Origin: Polaribacter tangerinus
Lineage (GTDB): Bacteria; Bacteroidota; Bacteroidia; Flavobacteriales; Flavobacteriaceae
DNA: 64,000 nucleotides
Assembly (NCBI RefSeq): GCF_038024095.1
Contig: NZ_CP150668.1
Location: 1,364,001-1,428,000, forward strand
Reading direction: 5' to 3'
The notes beneath the pieces are model-generated. The model made no database searches, was not told where the DNA came from, and saw nothing but the letters and a program-made list of their open reading frames with translations. Each line of letters opens with the position of its first letter. The first letter of the stretch is position 1. A program made the position numbers and the translations under genes. Of this stretch, positions 6,959-64,000 are shown piece by piece.

Positions 6959-8161
6959 CTATTTTTCTATAAATTCTTTTGTAATTCGACTGCTGGCAAT
7001 TTTTGCTGCTATAAAGCCCAATATTGTAAGCGTAAAAATAACAACTACAAAATTTATAAAACGGAATTCTACTGGATATGCCAATTCTGGAACAATCATA
7101 AAAAATGCAAACTGTTGTTGAAGGAAAACTAATAATACACCCAAAAATACGCCTACACACATTCCAAAAAATGTAAGTAAAAATCCCTGAAAAACAAATA
7201 TTTTTTTCAGCTCTGTAACAGTAAGTCCTAAATTATAAAGTGTCTTTAAGTTATCTTTTTTGTCTATTATCATCATAATAATAGCTCCTATTACATTAAA
7301 TAAAGCGATAATTACAATGAGTGTAAAAATTAAATAAGAAACAACGTTTTCTGTATTTATAACTTTGTAGAAAACCTCATTTAGCTGCTCTTTTGTTTGT
7401 ATCTTAAAGTTAATACCCAACTTTTCGGTTAGTTTATTTACCACGGTTGGTGCCTCTAAATAATTATGCACACTTATTTCGATGCCCGTTACTTCATTCT
7501 CTTTGTAATCTAATAATTTTCTGGCATCTTGTATCTCTGTAAAAACAAATTTACTTGCAAATTCTTCTGTACCAGAATATACTCCTACTATTTGAACTTC
7601 TATTTTTCGAAAGGGATTTCTAGGGTTTATAAAACCTTTTCCTGCCTTAGGAACCATAATTTTTAAAGGGGTTCCAAAATTTAAAGTTCCTAATGATAAT
7701 TTATTAGATATTTGACCACCAATAACTGCTGTATTTTTAAAATCTGTTTGCAACCAACTGCCTTGCTCTAAAGAACTGTCTATTGCTGTAATAAGTGGAT
7801 AATTATTTTGAACTCCTTTTATGTAACTAATTTCATTTTTAGAATTGTATTCTAAAAAAACTCGTTCTTCAATTACATGTGAAGCTGCTTTAATTTCTGG
7901 TAAGCTTAAAATTAATTGCTGAATACTATCGGTTACAAGAAAAGATTTTCCTTTAACTGCTGTTATTTTCACATCAGGGTCGGAGACTTCTAACAAACTG
8001 TAACTAAAAGTTCGCAAACCAGAAAAACCAGAGAGAATAATAAATAAAGCTAATGAACTAACTATTACGCCAAAAGAGGCTATCATAGTAATAATATTAA
8101 CAGCATTATTACTGGTTTTTGTAAATAAGTATCTTTTGGCTATGTAAAAAGGAAAACTCAA
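6959..8161 (-). CDS. FtsX/LolE-like ABC transporter permease
   Basis: A 400-residue membrane protein with the MacB/LolE layout: an N-terminal helix at about 20-45 (NIITMIASFGVIVSSLALFI), a large periplasmic domain (about 50-270), then three C-terminal helices around 275-385. The opening FYIAKRYLFTKTSNNAVNIIT is typical of the lipoprotein-releasing LolC/E family in Bacteroidetes. It would extract lipoproteins from the inner membrane with a LolD-type ATPase, which is not encoded nearby. The gene lies downstream of rbfA on the same strand. Confidence 0.85.
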   Translation of the reverse strand: MSFPFYIAKRYLFTKTSNNAVNIITMIASFGVIVSSLALFIILSGFSGLRTFSYSLLEVSDPDVKITAVKGKSFLVTDSIQQLILSLPEIKAASHVIEERVFLEYNSKNEISYIKGVQNNYPLITAIDSSLEQGSWLQTDFKNTAVIGGQISNKLSLGTLNFGTPLKIMVPKAGKGFINPRNPFRKIEVQIVGVYSGTEEFASKFVFTEIQDARKLLDYKENEVTGIEISVHNYLEAPTVVNKLTEKLGINFKIQTKEQLNEVFYKVINTENVVSYLIFTLIVIIALFNVIGAIIMMIIDKKDNLKTLYNLGLTVTELKKIFVFQGFLLTFFGMCVGVFLGVLLVFLQQQFAFFMIVPELAYPVEFRFINFVVVIFTLTILGFIAAKIASSRITKEFIEK

Positions 8162-9284: not shown

Positions 9285-10033
9285 AATTTGTATGTTATAT
9301 TTAGCGAGGTTCCTTGGTTTAATTCCGACTTAAAAATAGCCTTTGCACCAATTAACTTTGCTCTCGTTTTAATGTTTTCTATTCCAATACCAGAATTCTT
9401 ATTATTTACAGGGATAAAGCCGATACCATCATCTGAAACAGTTATGTCTAATACATTTTTATCAAATAATACTTTTATATCGAGCTTTTTAGCTTTGGAA
9501 TGTTTTATTGTATTCGAAAAAAATTCTTGCAAAATTCTAAAAATAATAATGCTAGATTTTTTATTAATCTTTTGTTTTTCACCAGAAACTTGCAATGAAG
9601 CTTTTAAAAAATTCATTCTATTAAAGCGGTCAATTTCTAACTCAATGGCTTCCATTAAATCGATGTTTTTTATTGCCTCTGGGTTTATTAATTTAGATAA
9701 AGAACGAACTTCTGTAAGACCTTTTGTAATAGTTTCTGATACTTCATGTAGGTTGTTTGGCGTAGCATTTTGTAACTGAATTTTTGCCAATGTTAAAAGC
9801 TGCCCAATATTATCGTGTAATTCCCAACTAATGTTTCTTAATGTTTCTTCTCTAATTTCTATTTGAGTTTCTGCAATTTCTTTTTCAAATTTTTTCTTAT
9901 CCTCTTTTTTTTGTTGAAGTAAGAGGTTTTTTCTTTTTTGAAAAACACTAAATAAAATGATTAGAGCTATAGTAATAAAAATTATGATTAATGTTGCTGA
10001 TAAAGCAACTAATGCCTCTGTTTTGTACTCCAT
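9281..10033 (-). CDS. HisKA_3-type sensor histidine kinase
   Basis: A 250-residue kinase: one membrane helix at about 7-31, a charged coiled coil (residues 32-60), a dimerisation/phosphoacceptor motif WELHDNIGQLL with His73, and a C-terminal HATPase_c domain with the N-box EFFSNTIKHSKA and the G-boxes VSDDGIGF and NSGIGIENIKTRAKLIGA. It has no extracytoplasmic sensor domain, so sensing may rely on the membrane protein encoded just upstream, whose gene overlaps this one by 25 nt. Partner of the NarL-type regulator at 8640-9284. Confidence 0.93.
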   Translation of the reverse strand: MEYKTEALVALSATLIIIFITIALIILFSVFQKRKNLLLQQKKEDKKKFEKEIAETQIEIREETLRNISWELHDNIGQLLTLAKIQLQNATPNNLHEVSETITKGLTEVRSLSKLINPEAIKNIDLMEAIELEIDRFNRMNFLKASLQVSGEKQKINKKSSIIIFRILQEFFSNTIKHSKAKKLDIKVLFDKNVLDITVSDDGIGFIPVNNKNSGIGIENIKTRAKLIGAKAIFKSELNQGTSLNITYKL

Positions 10034-10649: not shown

Positions 10650-11276
10650 TTAAAACGGAGGTCTCATTTGTGCTCTATTAGCACCTGAACTTTCTAAGTC
10701 GTCTTGCATATTAAAAAGAGGTAAAAAAGAAGCTCTATTTACCATTTTAGAGTTTTTACTACTAAATTTGTCTAAAAATTTAGTAAATGGTATGGGCTGT
10801 TTTACACCAGAATATAACGGTTCATAAGCAACATTTAAAGAGTCTCCAATATTTGTTGTAGGCATTAAAATTAATGTTTGTCTTCCATTGGTTTCTTTAT
10901 CTGAATAGTCTTTCGGGTAAGCAGCAGAAAAAATACGTATTCCTGTAAGTGGAATTTGCTTATCTTCAGATAATTTCTCTAGGTATGCAATGTATTGCTT
11001 TAACTGTGCTAAATCGAAAAAATTAGAAACTGTTTCGATGTCGTCTTCAATACCACTAAAATTTTTACGGTAAGCGTCTAAAACAGGCTTTTGACCAACA
11101 TCATATTGATGAAACATAGCTGCCATCTCTTTGTATGTTATGGCAATTGCTGGTCTTGTATTGTTTTCTTTTAATACAACAGAGGTTGATTTTTCTTGAG
11201 TAGTTTCAGTTTTACAACTAAAACATAAAATAAGAGATACTATACATAAAATTATGTAATTGCTTGTTACTTTCAT
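10650..11276 (-). CDS. Conserved lipoprotein of unknown function
   Basis: The ATG at 11276 is chosen because it gives a compact lipoprotein signal (MKVTSNYIILCIVSLILCFSC); an upstream in-frame start at 11306 would add ten residues in front of it. The mature 185 or so residues contain YKEMAAMFHQYDVGQKP and LTGIRIFSAAYPKDY, with no known catalytic motif. It lies 11 bp upstream of the membrane-protein/kinase/regulator genes and may be co-transcribed with them, suggesting an envelope accessory to that signalling system. Confidence 0.7.
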   Translation of the reverse strand: MKVTSNYIILCIVSLILCFSCKTETTQEKSTSVVLKENNTRPAIAITYKEMAAMFHQYDVGQKPVLDAYRKNFSGIEDDIETVSNFFDLAQLKQYIAYLEKLSEDKQIPLTGIRIFSAAYPKDYSDKETNGRQTLILMPTTNIGDSLNVAYEPLYSGVKQPIPFTKFLDKFSSKNSKMVNRASFLPLFNMQDDLESSGANRAQMRPPF

Positions 11277-11507
11277 AAAAAACATATTAGGGTTAATAAA
11301 CAACAAATTACAATTTTTTACAATATAGTTGTATAATAAGCAAAAAATATTTAAAATATATTGATTATCAGAAAGTTACTATAAATCAATTTATTAAAAT
11401 ACAGGATTTTTCCTGAATTAAAGAGAGTAAAACACTTGCAAATTATTGTACATAAATTTACAATTTTGTACAAAGAAAAAGTTACTGGGAAAATTGTTTT
11501 AAGAAAT

Positions 11508-11543
11508 AAAAAAAACCTCAAAACTTGATTGTTTTGAGGTTTT
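11508..11543 (-). terminator. Terminator of the atpDC operon
   Basis: An 11- to 13-bp perfect stem (AACCTCAAAAC with GTTTTGAGGTT) and a 6-nt loop, followed on the minus strand by a run of eight T. It begins 22 bp after the atpC stop. Confidence 0.88.
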
Positions 11544-11565
11544 AAAATTTATTTTACATACTAGA

Positions 11566-11859
11566 TTAATCTGCTAAAATAATGGCTTTATTATCATTCA
11601 ACTCTAAAGTTCCGGAATTAATGGCCAATGTTAACACTTTGTCATCATCTGCATGTGCAGTCAGTTTTCCGTGCAAATCATCTAAAACTAAATGATCTTG
11701 GGTGTGAATATGTATTTTTATTTCACCTTCTTTAAGAATAGAAACTATAGGAGCGTGATTGTTTAATATTTGAAACTCTCCGTCTGTTCCAGGTGCCGAA
11801 AATAAATCAACTTCCGAGGAAAATAAAATAGCTTCTGGTGTTACAATTTCTAAATACAT
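11566..11859 (-). CDS. atpC: ATP synthase F1 epsilon subunit
   Basis: A 97-residue epsilon subunit with the N-terminal beta-sandwich only (MYLEIVTPEAILFSSEV, APGTDGEFQILNNHAPIVSILKEGEI). The C-terminal helical hairpin found in many epsilon subunits is missing, as is usual for the short Bacteroidetes form. It follows atpD by 69 bp and is closed by the terminator at 11508-11543. It links the F1 rotor to the c-ring; the loss of the inhibitory helices implies no epsilon-type auto-inhibition. Confidence 0.95.
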   Translation of the reverse strand: MYLEIVTPEAILFSSEVDLFSAPGTDGEFQILNNHAPIVSILKEGEIKIHIHTQDHLVLDDLHGKLTAHADDDKVLTLAINSGTLELNDNKAIILAD

Positions 11860-11928
11860 CTATAATTATTTTTGTAGCTTTTACACTTAATTAGTTTTGC
11901 TGTATTTGTTAAACAACAAATAAGCGGT

Positions 11929-13446
<1,518 letters not shown>

Positions 13447-60128: not shown

Positions 60129-60140
60129 ATATTTTTGAAG

Positions 60141-60370
60141 ATGAAAAAAGTATTTCAAAATATCTCTATTGCTACATTAATGCTGTTTATTATATTGTTT
60201 TAGCCAACAAATTGAATATTAATATTCCTTACAACTCCTCTGATGTTCAAAGTTTAGTAGTTCTTATTTACTTATTTACAAGAATGAAATACAACCAACT
60301 GGAAATAAATGAAAAAGAGCAAACTATTAAAGAATTAAATAAGAAACTTAAAAGGTTAGAAAGTAAATAA
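60141..60370 (+). pseudogene. Small membrane/coiled-coil protein broken by a one-base frameshift
   Basis: ATG at 60141 reads MKKVFQNISIATLMLF and stops at 60201-60203. In the frame displaced by one deleted base, the sequence continues VYYIVLANKLNINIPYNSS, then a hydrophobic LVVLIYLFTRM and a charged coiled-coil tail (EINEKEQTIKELNKKLKRLE) to a TAA at 60368. Joining the frames near 60180-60185 restores a protein of about 76 residues. Either a true loss of function or a sequencing error. Confidence 0.6.
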
Positions 60371-60400: not shown

Positions 60401-60429
60401 AAAATGCAGCTTTTTAGCTGCATTTTTTT
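60401..60429. terminator. Terminator, probably the original glmS terminator
   Basis: Stem AAAATGCAGCT with AGCTGCATTTT around TTTT, with T-runs on both strands. On the minus strand it lies 20 bp past the glmS tail remnant (60450-60464), so it would have ended glmS transcripts before the island was inserted. Confidence 0.85.
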
Positions 60430-60449: not shown

Positions 60450-60464
60450 TTATTCTACCGTTAC
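60450..60464 (-). other. Displaced original 3' end of glmS (Val-Thr-Val-Glu-stop)
   Basis: On the minus strand, codons GTA ACG GTA GAA TAA spell VTVE-stop, the conserved C-terminus of GlmS. The functional glmS, ending at 63641, reads GTT ACA GTG GAG TAG: the same peptide with the third base changed in all five codons. The sequence at 60450-60464 is therefore best explained as the host gene's old tail, separated from the gene body by about 3.2 kb of inserted DNA. Confidence 0.75.
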
Positions 60465-60498
60465 CAGATGTCAACATCTCAACTAAAAGTCAGGTAAC
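60460..60498. repeat. Island repeat R1 (39 bp) at the glmS-tail junction
   Basis: GTTACCAGATGTCAAC begins it and AAAGTCAGGTAAC ends it. Identical over 39 bp to R2 at 61274-61312; flanks differ on both sides. The ends GTTACC/GGTAAC are inverted. It lies 9 bp past the stop of the 218-residue ORF. Unlike R2 and R3 it has no -10 box beyond the TTGACA, because the glmS tail begins there. Confidence 0.92.
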
Positions 60499-60507
60499 TA
60501 CCAACCA

Positions 60508-61164
60508 TTAGATTGTTTCCATCAATTGATTTTGTTCTTCTTCAATGATTGATTTAGTTGGGTTCACACCGAATTCTCCTAATGTTTTTACATAGAATTC
60601 AATGAAGTTATCTCCCTTACCACTATACTCATTGTAGGTTTTCCAATACAGTTGTCCATCACCATATGTTTTTGAGAGATATTGAAACCCATCCATAGGA
60701 TTGTTTTCGGTTTTTAGGTTTCTTTCATAGATAATGTTGTTTTTTGGATTCAACCACCACTTCATACACACATAACCAATTCCTTTTGAGATGTAATCAC
60801 CTACATACTTCTTTGAGAATGATTCCCAACTTTCAGTTTGGATTACTAATGGGGTGATTTGGAATTGTTCTTCACCATACTTATCCCACATCATATCTGA
60901 GATATCTTTCATTGAATTGATTTCATCTACATCAACATATCCTAACTCATTCACATATAATTTTCTTCCAATACTGAAATAATATTTTAGAAGGTTATCT
61001 CTGAATTCTTCAACAGTTATTGGAGTTTTAATTGAAGTGAAATCAACTTTTCTATTGTGAATTCCAATTAGTGTTTTTTGTAATTTTGATTTCAGATTTG
61101 GATTTTTTTTGTTCACTTTCTTTCTGAAATTCTTCGTGTTTCTTTTGTTTTGTTTTTTACTCAT
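60508..61164 (-). CDS. Unknown 218-residue protein, first cassette-like unit
   Basis: I do not recognise the family. The N-terminus (residues 1-33) is extremely basic and Asn/Lys-rich; the rest is a soluble domain with aromatic stretches (DMMWDKYGEEQFQITP, GIGYVCMKWWLNPKNN, DGQLYWKTYNEYSG). No signal peptide or membrane helix. It is transcribed from the sigma70-like promoter in R2 through a structured leader, and its stop lies 9 bp before R1. Codon use (many TTC, GGA, ATC) differs from the chromosomal neighbours. An RNA- or DNA-binding role is suggested only by the basic tail. Confidence 0.75.
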   Translation of the reverse strand: MSKKQNKRNTKNFRKKVNKKNPNLKSKLQKTLIGIHNRKVDFTSIKTPITVEEFRDNLLKYYFSIGRKLYVNELGYVDVDEINSMKDISDMMWDKYGEEQFQITPLVIQTESWESFSKKYVGDYISKGIGYVCMKWWLNPKNNIIYERNLKTENNPMDGFQYLSKTYGDGQLYWKTYNEYSGKGDNFIEFYVKTLGEFGVNPTKSIIEEEQNQLMETI

Positions 61165-61204
61165 TTCTAATAAATTTTAATTGTTTTTAATTTTATTTAA
61201 TTCC

Positions 61205-61241
61205 GATTCTCACTTAATAGAGGAGGAGAATCTTACCCTCT
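61205..61241 (-). promoter_or_regulatory. Pseudoknot-forming leader of cassette unit 1
   Basis: In the minus-strand transcript, AGAGGG (61236-61241) pairs with TCCTCT (61219-61224), and GATTCTC (61226-61232) pairs with GAGAATC (61205-61211). The order 5'-S1-S2-S1'-S2' with loops of 3, 1 and 7 nt is a classic H-type pseudoknot. It lies about 40 nt upstream of the ATG at 61164. Confidence 0.6.
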
Positions 61242-61260
61242 CAAACTTTGTTACATATAC

Positions 61261-61288
61261 ATTATAATCCTAAGTTACCAGATGTCAA
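61261..61288 (-). promoter_or_regulatory. Sigma70-like promoter of cassette unit 1
   Basis: TTGACA (61283-61288) and TATAAT (61261-61266) on the minus strand, 16 bp apart: a perfect match to the E. coli-type consensus. The -35 lies inside repeat R2. Confidence 0.7.
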
Positions 61289-61312
61289 CATCTCAACTAA
61301 AAGTCAGGTAAC
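61274..61312. repeat. Island repeat R2 (39 bp)
   Basis: Identical to R1. It begins 3 bp after the stop of the 38-residue ORF and carries the -35 element of the 218-residue gene, so it both ends one unit and starts the next. Confidence 0.92.
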
Positions 61313-61315
61313 CTC

Positions 61316-61432
61316 TTAGTAATAGAGAAGAGTTTCTTCATCATAATCCTCTTCCCAAACCCCATACATTATGTTGTTAAGGTGTTTGTTTGATTCCATT
61401 TCTGAGAATCTGATTTCTGAATTTGTTTCCAT
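61316..61432 (-). CDS. Unknown 38-residue acidic protein, second cassette-like unit
   Basis: ATG at 61432 encodes METNSEIRFSEMESNKHLN and then an acidic WEEDYDEETLLYY tail, with the stop at 61316-61318. It is too short for family assignment. Support for it being real: its own TTGACA/TATACT promoter, the same pseudoknot leader as the 218-residue gene, and the stop placed 3 bp before repeat R2. Small acidic products of mobile elements are often inhibitors or antitoxins, which is only a guess here. Confidence 0.6.
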   Translation of the reverse strand: METNSEIRFSEMESNKHLNNIMYGVWEEDYDEETLLYY

Positions 61433-61455
61433 AATTTTTAATTTTATTTAATTCC

Positions 61456-61491
61456 GATTCTCACTTTATGGAGGTGGAGAACCTTGACCTC
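61456..61491 (-). promoter_or_regulatory. Pseudoknot-forming leader of cassette unit 2
   Basis: Same architecture as in unit 1: GAGGT (61487-61491) with ACCTC (61471-61475) and GGTTCTC (61477-61483) with GAGAATC (61456-61462). Six changes in 72 nt separate the two leaders. One S1 pair changes G-T to T-A, and one S2 pair changes A-T to G-T, so pairing is kept. The outermost S1 pair is lost. Confidence 0.6.
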
Positions 61492-61511
61492 TCAAACTTT
61501 GTTACACTAAT

Positions 61512-61539
61512 AGTATAATGGGGTATTACCAGATGTCAA
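61512..61539 (-). promoter_or_regulatory. Sigma70-like promoter of cassette unit 2
   Basis: TTGACA (61534-61539) and TATACT (61512-61517) on the minus strand with 16 bp between, the same geometry as unit 1. The -35 is inside R3. Confidence 0.7.
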
Positions 61540-61562
61540 CCTTTTAGAAAAAGTCAGGTAAC
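61525..61562. repeat. Island repeat R3, diverged copy in a divergent promoter region
   Basis: It shares TTACCAGATGTCAAC and AAAGTCAGGTAAC with R1/R2, but the centre reads CTTTTAGAA and the first base is A. It lies between the minus-strand 38-residue ORF and the plus-strand gene at 61602. On the plus strand, TTAGAA (61544-61549) and TATAAC (61566-61571), 16 bp apart, could be a weak rightward promoter. Confidence 0.85.
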
Positions 61563-61601
61563 TTTTATAACTTTACAGTTCAATTAGAATGAACAAATCG
61601 G

Positions 61602-62354
61602 ATGGATGATAAATACCGAATAAAAAAAGTTGGAGATGGTTGGGAGTTCCTTCCAAAAGAGGAACGAGATAGGAAAAGGAAGTATGAAAATCTCACAATC
61701 AAAATTAGAAGAAGAGAAAAGAAGATTGAGAGAATAAAGGTTCAACTGAAAAAGGAGAAGGAAGAACTTACAGAGTGGAAAGGTGAAATGAGGGAAGGAT
61801 ACAATGAGATGGTTAAATACCACAAAACCCTTACACCTACATTTTCTACATCAATCAGTAAAAACCCCAAACACAAACAAAAAGATACACTAACTGGTGA
61901 TTATAAAACCAAAGGAAATCGTAGTTGGACAATAACTGTAAGAGTTATTGGGAAAAGAAAACCAATCTACTTAGGTACGATGGAAAAGGTTGGTGAAATG
62001 ATTGATTTGATTGAAGGTAAAAGTGAATTTTGGAGTAAGAAGAGAGTTGATACTAACTACAAACACGAAGTTCAAACGATTAAAAAAATTGAATACTTAG
62101 TCTATCCATTAATTAAAAGAGATTTGATTAAATGTTTAGAATCTGAGGGAAGTTTAGAACCTTTTATGAATAGTACTGTAAAGGGTATGGATTACTTAAA
62201 TGAATTGTATTTGAACTCTGAATTTTATGAGGAACCTAAAGTCATAGAAAAAAAGGAATCAAAAGGATTCTTCTTAGGTTATCTTCCAAATGGTAAACCA
62301 ATTTATGGTAAGAAGAAATCTAAAAAAGAAAAAGGTAATGAGGAGGGTAAATAA
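61602..62354 (+). CDS. Unknown 250-residue protein with coiled coil and possible AP2-like domain
   Basis: Residues 20-75 are a highly charged coiled coil (KKIERIKVQLKKEKEELTEW). Residues about 100-145 read GNRSWTITVRVIGKRKPIYLGTMEKVGEMI, resembling the AP2-like or arm-type DNA-binding beta-sheets of integrases and homing nucleases. The C-terminal tail is Lys-rich (GYLPNGKPIYGKKKSKKEK). No nuclease or recombinase active site is visible. It is divergent from the cassette units across R3; DNA binding is inferred. Confidence 0.65.
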   Translation: MDDKYRIKKVGDGWEFLPKEERDRKRKYENLTIKIRRREKKIERIKVQLKKEKEELTEWKGEMREGYNEMVKYHKTLTPTFSTSISKNPKHKQKDTLTGDYKTKGNRSWTITVRVIGKRKPIYLGTMEKVGEMIDLIEGKSEFWSKKRVDTNYKHEVQTIKKIEYLVYPLIKRDLIKCLESEGSLEPFMNSTVKGMDYLNELYLNSEFYEEPKVIEKKESKGFFLGYLPNGKPIYGKKKSKKEKGNEEGK

Positions 62355-62513
62355 ACAGTAATAATTGATATCAAATTCAATAAATAAAAGGACTACATCA
62401 ATCAACAAAGAAACACTTTTTCATTAACTGATATAGTAATCACAATTCTTTTATTCTTTATATTATATCAAATAGTGATTCAATCTTATTTTGATACTGT
62501 AATTATTTTTGAA

Positions 62514-62699
62514 TTACACTAAGGTGTGATTTTGTTTCATTTGATTTTCCCACTCTAATAAATCCGTTTTCCTGATATACTTTTTATGAGATGAAATTTC
62601 TATCATAGGTAAACCAAACCTTTTTCTCCATTCTTCTATGGTGGTTCTGTTTACATTGTACATCTTCATTAGTTGTTGTTTTGTTATTCTTTCTTCCAT
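62514..62699 (-). CDS. Small helix-turn-helix protein (excisionase/MerR-like)
   Basis: A 61-residue protein reading ITKQQLMKMYNVNRTTIEEWRKRFGLP followed by a wing-like HKKYIRKTDLLEWENQ, the pattern of small HTH_17/excisionase proteins. It overlaps the upstream 70-residue ORF by 16 nt. A candidate regulator or recombination directionality factor for the island, inferred from family and position. Confidence 0.7.
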   Translation of the reverse strand: MEERITKQQLMKMYNVNRTTIEEWRKRFGLPMIEISSHKKYIRKTDLLEWENQMKQNHTLV

Positions 62700-62896
62700 T
62701 GTTTTTCTTCTTCTTTTTTTAATAATTCTTTGAATAGTTTTTGATATCCTTCTTTATCTTTCTTTATTCGATAGGGTTCAAGTTCATCTGAGAAGTTCTT
62801 AATCAATTCTGATTTTCTGATTAACTCCTCTGTGAATTCTTTTGGATTTTCTTTAATCCAGTTTAATGTTTCAATATTTAATTTAGTTTGTTTCAT
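62684..62896 (-). CDS. Small charged protein coupled to the HTH gene
   Basis: A 70-residue protein from the ATG at 62896 (MKQTKLNIETLNWIKENPKE, ending KKEEEKQWKKE). An earlier in-frame ATG at 62929 coincides with the end of a decayed ORF and seems less likely. Helical and highly charged, no family recognised. It overlaps the HTH gene by 16 nt, so the two are probably co-translated. Confidence 0.6.
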   Translation of the reverse strand: MKQTKLNIETLNWIKENPKEFTEELIRKSELIKNFSDELEPYRIKKDKEGYQKLFKELLKKEEEKQWKKE

Positions 62897-62928
62897 CTTT
62901 AAACAGTTATTATAAATAGGATAAACCA

Positions 62929-63165
62929 TTATTTTATTTTGATTGAATTTTTAACTCTTAGAGTATAATCAGTATTAGATACACCAATCCCCTTTAAGAA
63001 TTTCACCTCTTTTTTGAATCAATTATAAATTTCCTCAGACCAGTTCGATTGAATCACCCATATCTGATTTATAGTATAATCATTTTTGATACTATCGGAG
63101 AAACCTCTTCCGTTATGTTTAGATATTATTTCAATCTTACAGAATACTATCCGACGTCTAACCCA
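62929..63165 (-). pseudogene. Decayed island ORF with an in-frame TGA
   Basis: The minus-strand frame is open from 63165 to a TAA at 62929-62931 except for a TGA at 63019-63021. Its translation looks protein-like on both sides of the stop (KIEIISKHNGRGFSDSIKN, NQIWVIQSNWSEEIYN, FKKEVKFLKGIGVSN, TDYTLRVKNSIKIK). A TGG-to-TGA change (Trp to stop) would explain it. No start codon is visible upstream of the TAG at 63166-63168, so the 5' end is gone too. Family unknown. Confidence 0.45.
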
Positions 63166-63308
63166 CTAACTATTCCTCAGAACCCTCGTGGGTGGTTGGT
63201 ATTTTACCCTATGATGGATACCAGTATCTAATATAAGTATCACGAAGTGTAGGAAAACGTAAAAAAAGTGAAGTATTTTTATCTAGAAGGGTAAGAAAAA
63301 AGTTAGTA
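63166..63308. other. Non-coding spacer in the island
   Basis: No gene was found on either strand. It holds the clustered short inverted motifs GGATACCAGTATC and TAAGTATCACG near 63217-63244 and an inverted pair ACCCAC/GTGGGT around 63161-63192. Combined with the decayed ORF, 62897-63308 carries no intact gene. Confidence 0.4.
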
Positions 63309-63605
63309 TTACCTTATTTCCTCAATAATCGGAACAGAAACCTCAACAATATCCTTTCTATTAATTCTCTCTTCTCTTATCTTTCCCTTCTTATAAATGG
63401 AATGAATATGGTTGTTTTTAAATACATTACCACGAGGTGTTTTTAACCCTTCCTCATTTAGAATTTGAGATATCTTTCTGTATCCAATAGGGGTAAGGAT
63501 ATCTTCTTTATACTTACAAATTCTATTGAATAAATATTGTTGATATTCAGTATAATTAGATTCCCAAAGATGTGTGGTTGTAATTGATATTGAGAAACTT
63601 AACAT
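63309..63605 (-). CDS. Orphan recombinase-domain protein at the glmS-proximal end of the island
   Basis: A 98-residue protein from the ATG at 63605 (MLSFSISITTTHLWESN). Residues about 45-80 read IGYRKISQILNEEGLKTPRG followed by NHIHSIYKKGKIREERINRKD, very like the helical Recombinase domain of large serine recombinases. The N-terminal catalytic resolvase domain with its active-site Ser is absent. It starts 35 nt after the glmS stop. It may be a DNA-binding accessory that recognises the insertion site; catalysis would need another protein. Confidence 0.65.
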   Translation of the reverse strand: MLSFSISITTTHLWESNYTEYQQYLFNRICKYKEDILTPIGYRKISQILNEEGLKTPRGNVFKNNHIHSIYKKGKIREERINRKDIVEVSVPIIEEIR

Positions 63606-63640
63606 CCATTTTATGGAGTAAGGATTACCAACACACATAT

Positions 63641-64000
63641 CTACTCCACTGTAACAGATTTAGCCAAGTTTCTAGGCTGATCTACATTTTTACCTAACAT
63701 TACAGCAATATGATATGACAATAATTGCAACGGAATAGTAGTTAATAATGGGGTTAAAGCCTCTTCAGTTTCTGGGATTTCTATAACGTGATCTGCAATT
63801 TTTCGAACTTGTGTATCACCTTGTGTAACTATAGCAATAATTTTACCTGATCTAGACTTTATCTCCTGAATATTGCTAACCACCTTTTCGTAATGCCCTT
63901 TGTTAGTAGCTATTACAAAAATTGGCATATTTTCATCAATTAGAGCAATTGGTCCATGTTTCATCTCTGCTGCCGGATATCCCTCTGCATGAATATAAGA
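63641..64000 (-). CDS. glmS: Glucosamine-fructose-6-phosphate aminotransferase, C-terminal part, cut by window edge
   Basis: The last 119 residues of GlmS: the end of the second SIS isomerase domain (AEGYPAAEMKHGPIALIDEN, SRSGKIIAIVTQGDTQVRKI) and the conserved C-terminus LGKNVDQPRNLAKSVTVE, which closes the active site. It makes glucosamine 6-phosphate for peptidoglycan and lipid A. The final codons (GTT ACA GTG GAG TAG) appear to be supplied by the adjacent island; the probable native tail is at 60450-60464. Confidence 0.97.
   Translation of the reverse strand, partial: SYIHAEGYPAAEMKHGPIALIDENMPIFVIATNKGHYEKVVSNIQEIKSRSGKIIAIVTQGDTQVRKIADHVIEIPETEEALTPLLTTIPLQLLSYHIAVMLGKNVDQPRNLAKSVTVE

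Follow-up and report, generated by a model that had tools for sequence, protein, structure and literature searches.

An island in the last glmS codons of Polaribacter tangerinus, probably a recombinase-less relative of serine-integrase elements whose integrase may be split on integration

Integrative elements of the phiC31, Bxb1 and TP901-1 types rely on large serine recombinases (LSRs), and both LSR islands and the replacement of a gene end by incoming DNA are of known kinds. The directionality of serine integrases, which integrate but need a partner protein in order to excise, is a central question in phage biology and genome engineering. Here an island in the 3' end of glmS is described from a stretch of 64,000 nucleotides of Polaribacter tangerinus (contig NZ_CP150668.1, positions 1,364,001 to 1,428,000; this whole stretch is called the window below). 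The island is considered likely to be a recombinase-less derivative of a family of serine-integrase elements of Flavobacteriaceae, for which the last five codons of glmS, stop included, would serve as attB and whose integrase would be split. With LSR integrative elements this family shares an integrase with PF00239 and PF07508 (in the relatives), attP-like inverted arms, a single target in a conserved gene and a target that is kept functional; unlike them, the window copy is without an LSR, attP appears to lie inside the integrase coding region, and integration would separate a C-terminal domain.

Self-disrupting recombinases are called exclusively archaeal in a 2021 review (PMC8371274). The archaeal 'suicidal' integrases of the SSV type, as presented there, likewise have attP in the integrase gene, are split on integration and would need an intact copy elsewhere for remobilisation; they are, however, tyrosine enzymes, whereas serine domains are found here in Flavobacteriaceae, only the C-terminal domain would be severed, and three cases suggest -1 frameshifting. 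In mycobacteriophage BPs, according to an account of its integration-dependent immunity (PMC4557955), attP also lies in a coding region and integration shortens the protein, but the split gene is that of the repressor, not of the integrase. As for the target, glmS is named as the site of Tn7 in PMC2359905, and both Tn7 at attTn7 and BCEGI-1 beside glmS in Bacillus cereus share with the present island an insertion at the glmS 3' end; in contrast to these, no Tns-like match was seen here among the scanned open reading frames (ORFs), and the insertion lies within codons and comes with a replacement tail. A term search of the main text of a large LSR survey (PMC10083194) gave no mention of glmS, and no description of a self-splitting bacterial serine integrase was found in the literature searched, which included few subscription papers or preprints.

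Paired glmS tails and the element family

On the minus strand of the window, glmS ends in ...AAA TCT GTT ACA GTG GAG TAG (63641-63661), of which the tail proper is GTTACAGTGGAGTAG at 63641-63655. A second tail, GTA ACG GTA GAA TAA (GTAACGGTAGAATAA), occupies 60450-60464 of the same strand, 3191 nt away as measured from start to start. Both encode Val-Thr-Val-Glu-stop with the third base as the sole difference in 5/5 codons, and a hairpin with a T-run stands 3' of the second; tails and hairpin were thus found as the first-pass annotation had described them. V-T-V-E-stop occurs in exactly these two copies on both strands of the 64 kb, about 0.0009 being expected per 3.2 kb of one strand from base composition, and since there is no further copy in the 64 kb the pair is not due to chance. 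The identical peptide encoded by both tails might also be expected of a duplication or a decayed glmS fragment that is no crossover product; such an origin is very improbable, given that all five third bases differ, that the displaced tail precedes a native-type terminator and native-type neighbours, and that displaced tails with paired arms recur in nine relatives. The window glmS is taken to owe its last 10 nt, AGTGGAGTAG at 63641-63650, to the element. An Rfam scan gave just four matches, all sub-threshold and all around the terminator.

A scan of glmS ends in relatives, from which 80 loci were kept, showed glmS to terminate in VTVE-stop in 79 of them; in the other, L023, the contig ends within the stop codon. 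It had been claimed earlier that foreign DNA entered the last glmS codons at a core, here GTNAC, and brought a recoded tail, which led to the expectation of relatives with no island between an uninterrupted glmS and the flavoprotein and marC genes found past the second tail of the window. Such empty sites were found in L004 and L006 and, within the genus sample, in L118, L120, L121, L124 and L131, and in L004, L006, L118, L120 and L131 the T-run hairpin also follows glmS. The remaining relatives have bigger gaps 3' of glmS or no flavoprotein gene within the stretch covered, and other relatives carry different inserts at the identical glmS codons, again as anticipated. Native tails differ between species in synonymous codons, so that a single native tail is not predictable. 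Besides the empty sites, the claim is supported by the uniformity of the tails next to islands: GTGGAGT is present in 17/20 island-adjacent tails versus 9/96 other tails (Fisher p 3e-11, uncorrected for shared ancestry, the 96 comparison tails not having been screened individually for other islands). Sequence comparison shows that joining at GTNAC gives glmS the tail of the element (mostly NGTGGAGTAR) and places the native tail at the far end. As is usual for LSR integrative elements, a single target then has its tail at both junctions, with two glmS tails in the window and displaced tails in the relatives.

Directly past glmS lies orf109, the start codon of which is two nt beyond the glmS stop in the window. 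Homologs of orf109 occur in 13/397 family genomes and 10/166 genus genomes (own genome counted in both), and a glmS-type tail adjoins the gene in all of them except G546; on this evidence the island is one of a family of Flavobacteriaceae elements that have orf109 just past glmS as their mark. In class F, orf109 is on the glmS strand; in class R, it is antiparallel to the displaced tail. The aligned part of class F starts 6-75 nt beyond the last glmS sense codon (G239, G268, G064, G330, G295, G006, G151, G099, L015, L005 and G412), and the same type of left junction is seen in G519, G500, G486, G533, G492 and G501, where G501 and L005 count as one because their sequence is identical at this place. 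Class R comprises G391, G043, G068, G362 and G418. Stops were found within orf109 of seven genomes (G006, G099, G500, G546, G486, G533 and G492), and no PF00239 match lies near the orf109 locus in the six of these that were searched; orf109 is free of stops in G412, G519, G418 and G068, as is the aligned part in L015. Decay of orf109 in the absence of an LSR is a tendency only, because several LSR-less copies, that of the window included, are intact. The predicted orf109 structure is helical but weak (mean pLDDT, the predicted local distance difference test, 61.6), and a fold search of the PDB with it returned no match at E <= 0.001. In G068, a 15 kb segment (L112 2621-18799) lies between inverted copies of orf109 together with an identical 206-aa small resolvase.

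Attachment arms were sought by a script that required the left arm to have an inverted counterpart matching at >=15/20 positions, with a displaced tail (>=9/12) behind it, and that covered 16 left junctions in 15 loci. Paired arms with a displaced tail were returned for 7/16 junctions, among them the 14.9 kb element of G412 (20/20), the mini-element of G418 (1.1 kb, 19/20) and the short elements of G064 (1.1 kb, 19/20), G486 (1.07 kb, 17/20), G268 (1.0 kb, 17/20) and G099 (1.1 kb, 17/20). Two further pairs were recognised by eye across contigs, in L015/G560 (19/19) and G519 (20/22), which brings the total to nine relatives. The script found no right arm with displaced tail for the window, the class R junction of G418, L105, L106, L107, L108, L015, L174 or L177; the sequence 3' of glmS amounts to <1.4 kb in L105, L108, L174 and L177.

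Since glmS is the classical target of Tn7, a Tn7-like transposon at glmS has to be weighed. This is hardly to be credited: five scanned island ORFs are without a Tns-like match, the insertion is within codons and swaps the tail, and LSRs and paired arms are present in the relatives. The earlier statement that the targeting is unlike that of Tn7 therefore holds for the ORFs scanned, and glmS would join the safe-harbour genes through replacement of its end, not through an insertion of the Tn7 type.

The integrase of the relatives and its attachment site

Five relatives bear an LSR, three of which (G412, G068 and G418) were recognised by PF00239 and PF07508 matches and two (G560 and G519) by similarity. 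The G412 island encodes an LSR of 641 aa with PF00239 and PF07508 that stops 33 nt short of the displaced-tail core. In G560, the genome of L015, an LSR of 631 aa, 50% identical to that of G412, has the equivalent position, on another contig than its glmS, while G519 has only the C-terminal 263 aa at a contig edge; in both genomes the contig with the LSR also has the right end. Matches to PF00239, PF07508 and zinc ribbons were found in the LSRs of G068 and G418, both of which extend into the glmS tail on its antisense strand. When a profile built from the G412 and G560 LSRs was searched against 345 family genomes, G068 alone gave a match at E <= 1e-30 (G412, G418, G519 and G560 were outside this draw). 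Plasmids and phages gave distant LSRs only, with at least 80% of the query covered in one place in 0/22 matching plasmid records and 2/130 matching phage records, all at <60% identity. An apparent second LSR copy in G412 was rejected; it is probably an assembly overlap of a circular chromosome, because the genes at one end of the single contig recur at the other (L182 and L183 versus L135).

Circles were predicted by joining the element ends by script. In all LSR-bearing elements orf109 then lies across attP from the integrase, in the LSR frame in two (G068 and G418) and in the -1 frame in three (G412, G519 and G560), and because orf109 continues beyond the crossover in one of these frames, attP is placed within a continuous integrase coding region. 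In these relatives, not in the window, integration would split the gene at attP, in frame in G068 and G418 and only through a -1 shift in the other three. The G068 LSR terminates in ...PVRDYSTVTDFAKFLG, its YSTVT being the glmS tail read backwards; elsewhere in this genome there is an in-frame fusion of the same LSR end to orf109, which the joining of the element ends reproduces exactly. The joined ends give a frame of 660 aa in G068 and, in G418, a single stretch that stays open over 716 codons.

In G412, G560 and G519, all of class F, the LSR has its own stop, and the orf109 frame, which overlaps the LSR end, is open across attP over 134, 162 and 131 codons, respectively, from stop to stop. 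The LSR ends read A_AAA_AAG GTT TAA in G412, C_CCA_AAG TAG in G560 and G_GGA_AAG TAA in G519, and a -1 slip there leads into orf109. In-phase slippery heptamers, AAAAAAG (G412), GGGAAAG (G519) and CCCAAAG (G560), are therefore present at the frame overlap of 3/3 class F LSRs, and XXXAAAG lies at the final or penultimate sense codon of 3/3 of them versus 2/871 background ORFs (>=150 aa). Stimulation of -1 frameshifting typically involves a stable stem some 5-9 nt downstream. The arm starts 6 nt past the heptamer in 3/3 predicted circles, and the folded long stem opens after about 5, 5 and 4 nt at the predicted joints, where its predicted RNA energies are -44.7, -37.8 and -39.8 kcal/mol (z -9.2, -6.6 and -6.5). 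No such stem exists at the integrated right end of G412 (-10.6 kcal/mol, z -0.2), and the integrated orf109 frame of G412 has no ATG, GTG or TTG upstream of the conserved motif.

These features bear on a rival account, an ordinary LSR island with attP beside the integrase, in which orf109 is a separate accessory gene (that of a directionality factor, for instance) whose start happens to fall at the attachment site, without any split or frameshift. The ATG of orf109 just beyond the glmS stop in the window and in G519 would fit this account, as would the own stop and complete-looking C-terminus of the class F LSRs, the intact orf109 of several LSR-less elements and the hairpin, for which attP arms suffice as a cause. 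It is nevertheless regarded as rather unlikely, for three reasons: the integrated orf109 of G412 has no start codon before its conserved motif; G418 and G068 have a single LSR-orf109 frame across attP, with a fused genomic copy in G068; and the three heptamers differ in sequence while the XXXAAAG pattern is kept.

In the split-integrase account, the circle would make the full integrase, LSR plus orf109 domain, by plain read-through or by a -1 frameshift at the heptamer backed by the attP hairpin. Integration would sever orf109 from the integrase and remove the hairpin, and because both are lost the integrated element would make the shortened integrase only and would be immobile until the full enzyme is supplied from elsewhere. 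The window copy, without an LSR and a right arm, would depend on help in trans, if it is mobile at all. The frameshift or split as a means of regulation is the bold part of this explanation and is advanced tentatively, as a serious possibility that falls short of a probability: a self-disarming bacterial serine integrase with attP in its coding region, in one lineage of which the attP inverted repeat would have a second role in the RNA, stimulating a -1 frameshift by which the circle alone adds the orf109 domain. Insertion into glmS would remove both hairpin and domain, so that the protein made would report the integration state while the crossover rebuilds an essential gene. If true, a C-terminal domain removed by the integrase's own reaction, perhaps via a frameshift signal in attP, would constitute a natural one-way switch, and self-splitting integrases would extend to bacteria.

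A number of observations weigh against this explanation or parts of it. The split integrase is based on five LSR-bearing elements and the frameshift on three. The laxer pattern XXXAAA[AG] is found in 34/871 background ORFs; in G519 the LSR stop shares bases with an ATG (TAATG), and coupled re-initiation could take the place of frameshifting there. The class F LSRs of G412, G519 and G560 already end in a similar motif of helix-turn-helix (HTH) type, as judged by eye, and orf109 may therefore be dispensable. The inverted repeats that form the attP arms may serve in DNA binding only. The arm searches ran without a shuffled control, and the seventh paired junction, that of the 1.1 kb element of G239, agrees at 15/20, exactly the threshold. 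No right end was found by script in L106 and L107, although about 6 kb and about 17 kb past glmS are covered, and no partner was found in the window for its left arm. In G362 (L207 and L114) an LSR near the left junction reads away from glmS and the class R orf109 is on another contig, the contigs being broken, so that neither class is matched; the glmS tail of this genome is not GTGGAGT, and its addition makes the island-adjacent count 17/21. The exceptional orf109 copy of G546 (L175 17437-17646) contains a stop and has no glmS or full tail in the surrounding 20 kb; it may mark another target or a decayed site. Finally, the window island contains no LSR, and the three PF00239 genes of its own genome lie elsewhere.

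Make-up of the window island

Around two of these three PF00239 genes (L184 and L185) no glmS-type tail was found. With no LSR present, a non-autonomous or dead derivative is the best reading of the window copy; its gene content suggests that it is probably a recombinase-less member of the family, with neither an LSR nor a right arm and with orf109 as all that is left of the integrase. Its parts are listed in Table 1.

Table 1. Features of the island and its borders (positions in the window)
Feature	Position	Strand	Remark
Hairpin with T-run, read as native glmS terminator	60401..60429	.	
Displaced native glmS tail GTAACGGTAGAATAA	60450..60464	-	
Site 1, 39 nt	60460..60498	-	terminal GTAAC = right crossover core
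orf218, orphan protein	60508..61164	-	own genome only, 1/397 family genomes
Site 2, 39 nt	61274..61312	-	identical to site 1
38-aa ORF behind leader repeat	61316..61432	-	read from sequence
Site 3, 38 nt, variant	61525..61562	-	between orf250 and 38-aa ORF
orf250, predicted long N-terminal helix	61602..62354	+	divergent from cassette genes; G412 island homolog (35%)
orf61, HTH_17 / excisionase-like DNA-binding protein (predicted)	62514..62699	-	97% identical in G412 island
orf81	62684..62929	-	homolog in G412 island (75%)
Conserved block, ~250 nt	63000..63245	.	common to Maribacter L015 and second G418 locus
orf109, weakly PF07508-like (E 0.0023, below Pfam cut-off)	63309..63638	-	past-attP part of integrase frame in LSR-bearing relatives
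Left attachment arm GTGTGTTGGTAATCCTTACTCC	63615..63636	-	resembles arms of G519 and G533
glmS 3' part	63641..64000	-	extends beyond window edge
Left crossover core GTTAC	63651..63655	-	within glmS Val-Thr codons

At the right junction, the 39-nt repeat takes the place of the expected arm, and its second exact copy and the 38-nt variant precede two cassette-like units, the 115-nt leader stretches of which are 82% identical. The island of G412 has the same layout of orf250, site, leader, ORF and site (L135 13621-14362); its leaders are related, and its repeat, present three times, has another sequence. In both the window (60460-61562) and G412, the leader that follows each island-specific structured repeat ahead of the small orphan ORFs resembles ..TTCTCCNCCT..AAGTGAGAA... 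The structure prediction of orf250 is weak (mean pLDDT 45.7). The repeats may be either recombination sites or operators.

The island may accordingly be composite, which would be compatible with its derivation from a serine-integrase element: the left end would come from an orf109-type element and the right part from a separate cassette system, the sites of both sharing a GTAAC core. A right junction formed by a site that recurs before cassette units and lacks the expected arm would be accounted for in this way, and so would the similar layout in G412 with another site sequence. This is held to be possible, though doubtful, since the sites have no recombinase linked to them and may be operators, and since in 166 genus genomes the site part of the query matched the own genome only, 43 others matching just its AT-rich first 55 nt. 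Within the own genome the 39-nt pattern occurs at the glmS locus only, and the viral contigs searched contained neither an exact match to it nor relatives of orf218, orf109 or the LSR pair.

The arrays of the window and G412 resemble integron cassettes in having small ORFs between repeats of about 35-39 nt with inverted ends, beside a divergent gene. Integron sites have the consensus GTTRRRY/RYYYAAC. The site ends here, GTTACC..GGTAAC, do not fit it, and no IntI or other tyrosine recombinase was seen among the scanned island ORFs; an integron cassette array was rejected or marked down as a candidate on these grounds. Three copies of another repeat, of 64 nt, are present in L136 of G418 (7045-7108, 9785-9848 and 12231-12294), one of them ending at the start of an orf250-like ORF.

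The block between orf81 and orf109, strongly conserved in the window, G418 and Maribacter, is not clearly coding, and it folded no better than its shuffles on either strand (z 0.34 and -0.52). It corresponds to about 9468-9740 of L015 and about 11702-11975 of L202 in G418, where a copy of orf81, orf61 and the block (11163-12061, in 11 kb) lies far from glmS; the module therefore occurs at another site too. Between the flavoprotein gene and the terminator of the window (60140-60370), short ORFs, possibly broken, were noted by eye.

Among the relatives, the cargo of G412 includes a type I restriction-modification set together with a candidate defence gene, PDC-S21 (PADLOC), and that of G068 a type I R subunit and GmrSD-like genes. 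The mini-elements of G239, G064, G099 and G418 (L102, L104, L109 and L136) have in common a two-gene cargo, recognised by eye, of a small membrane-like protein and an HTH-like regulator.

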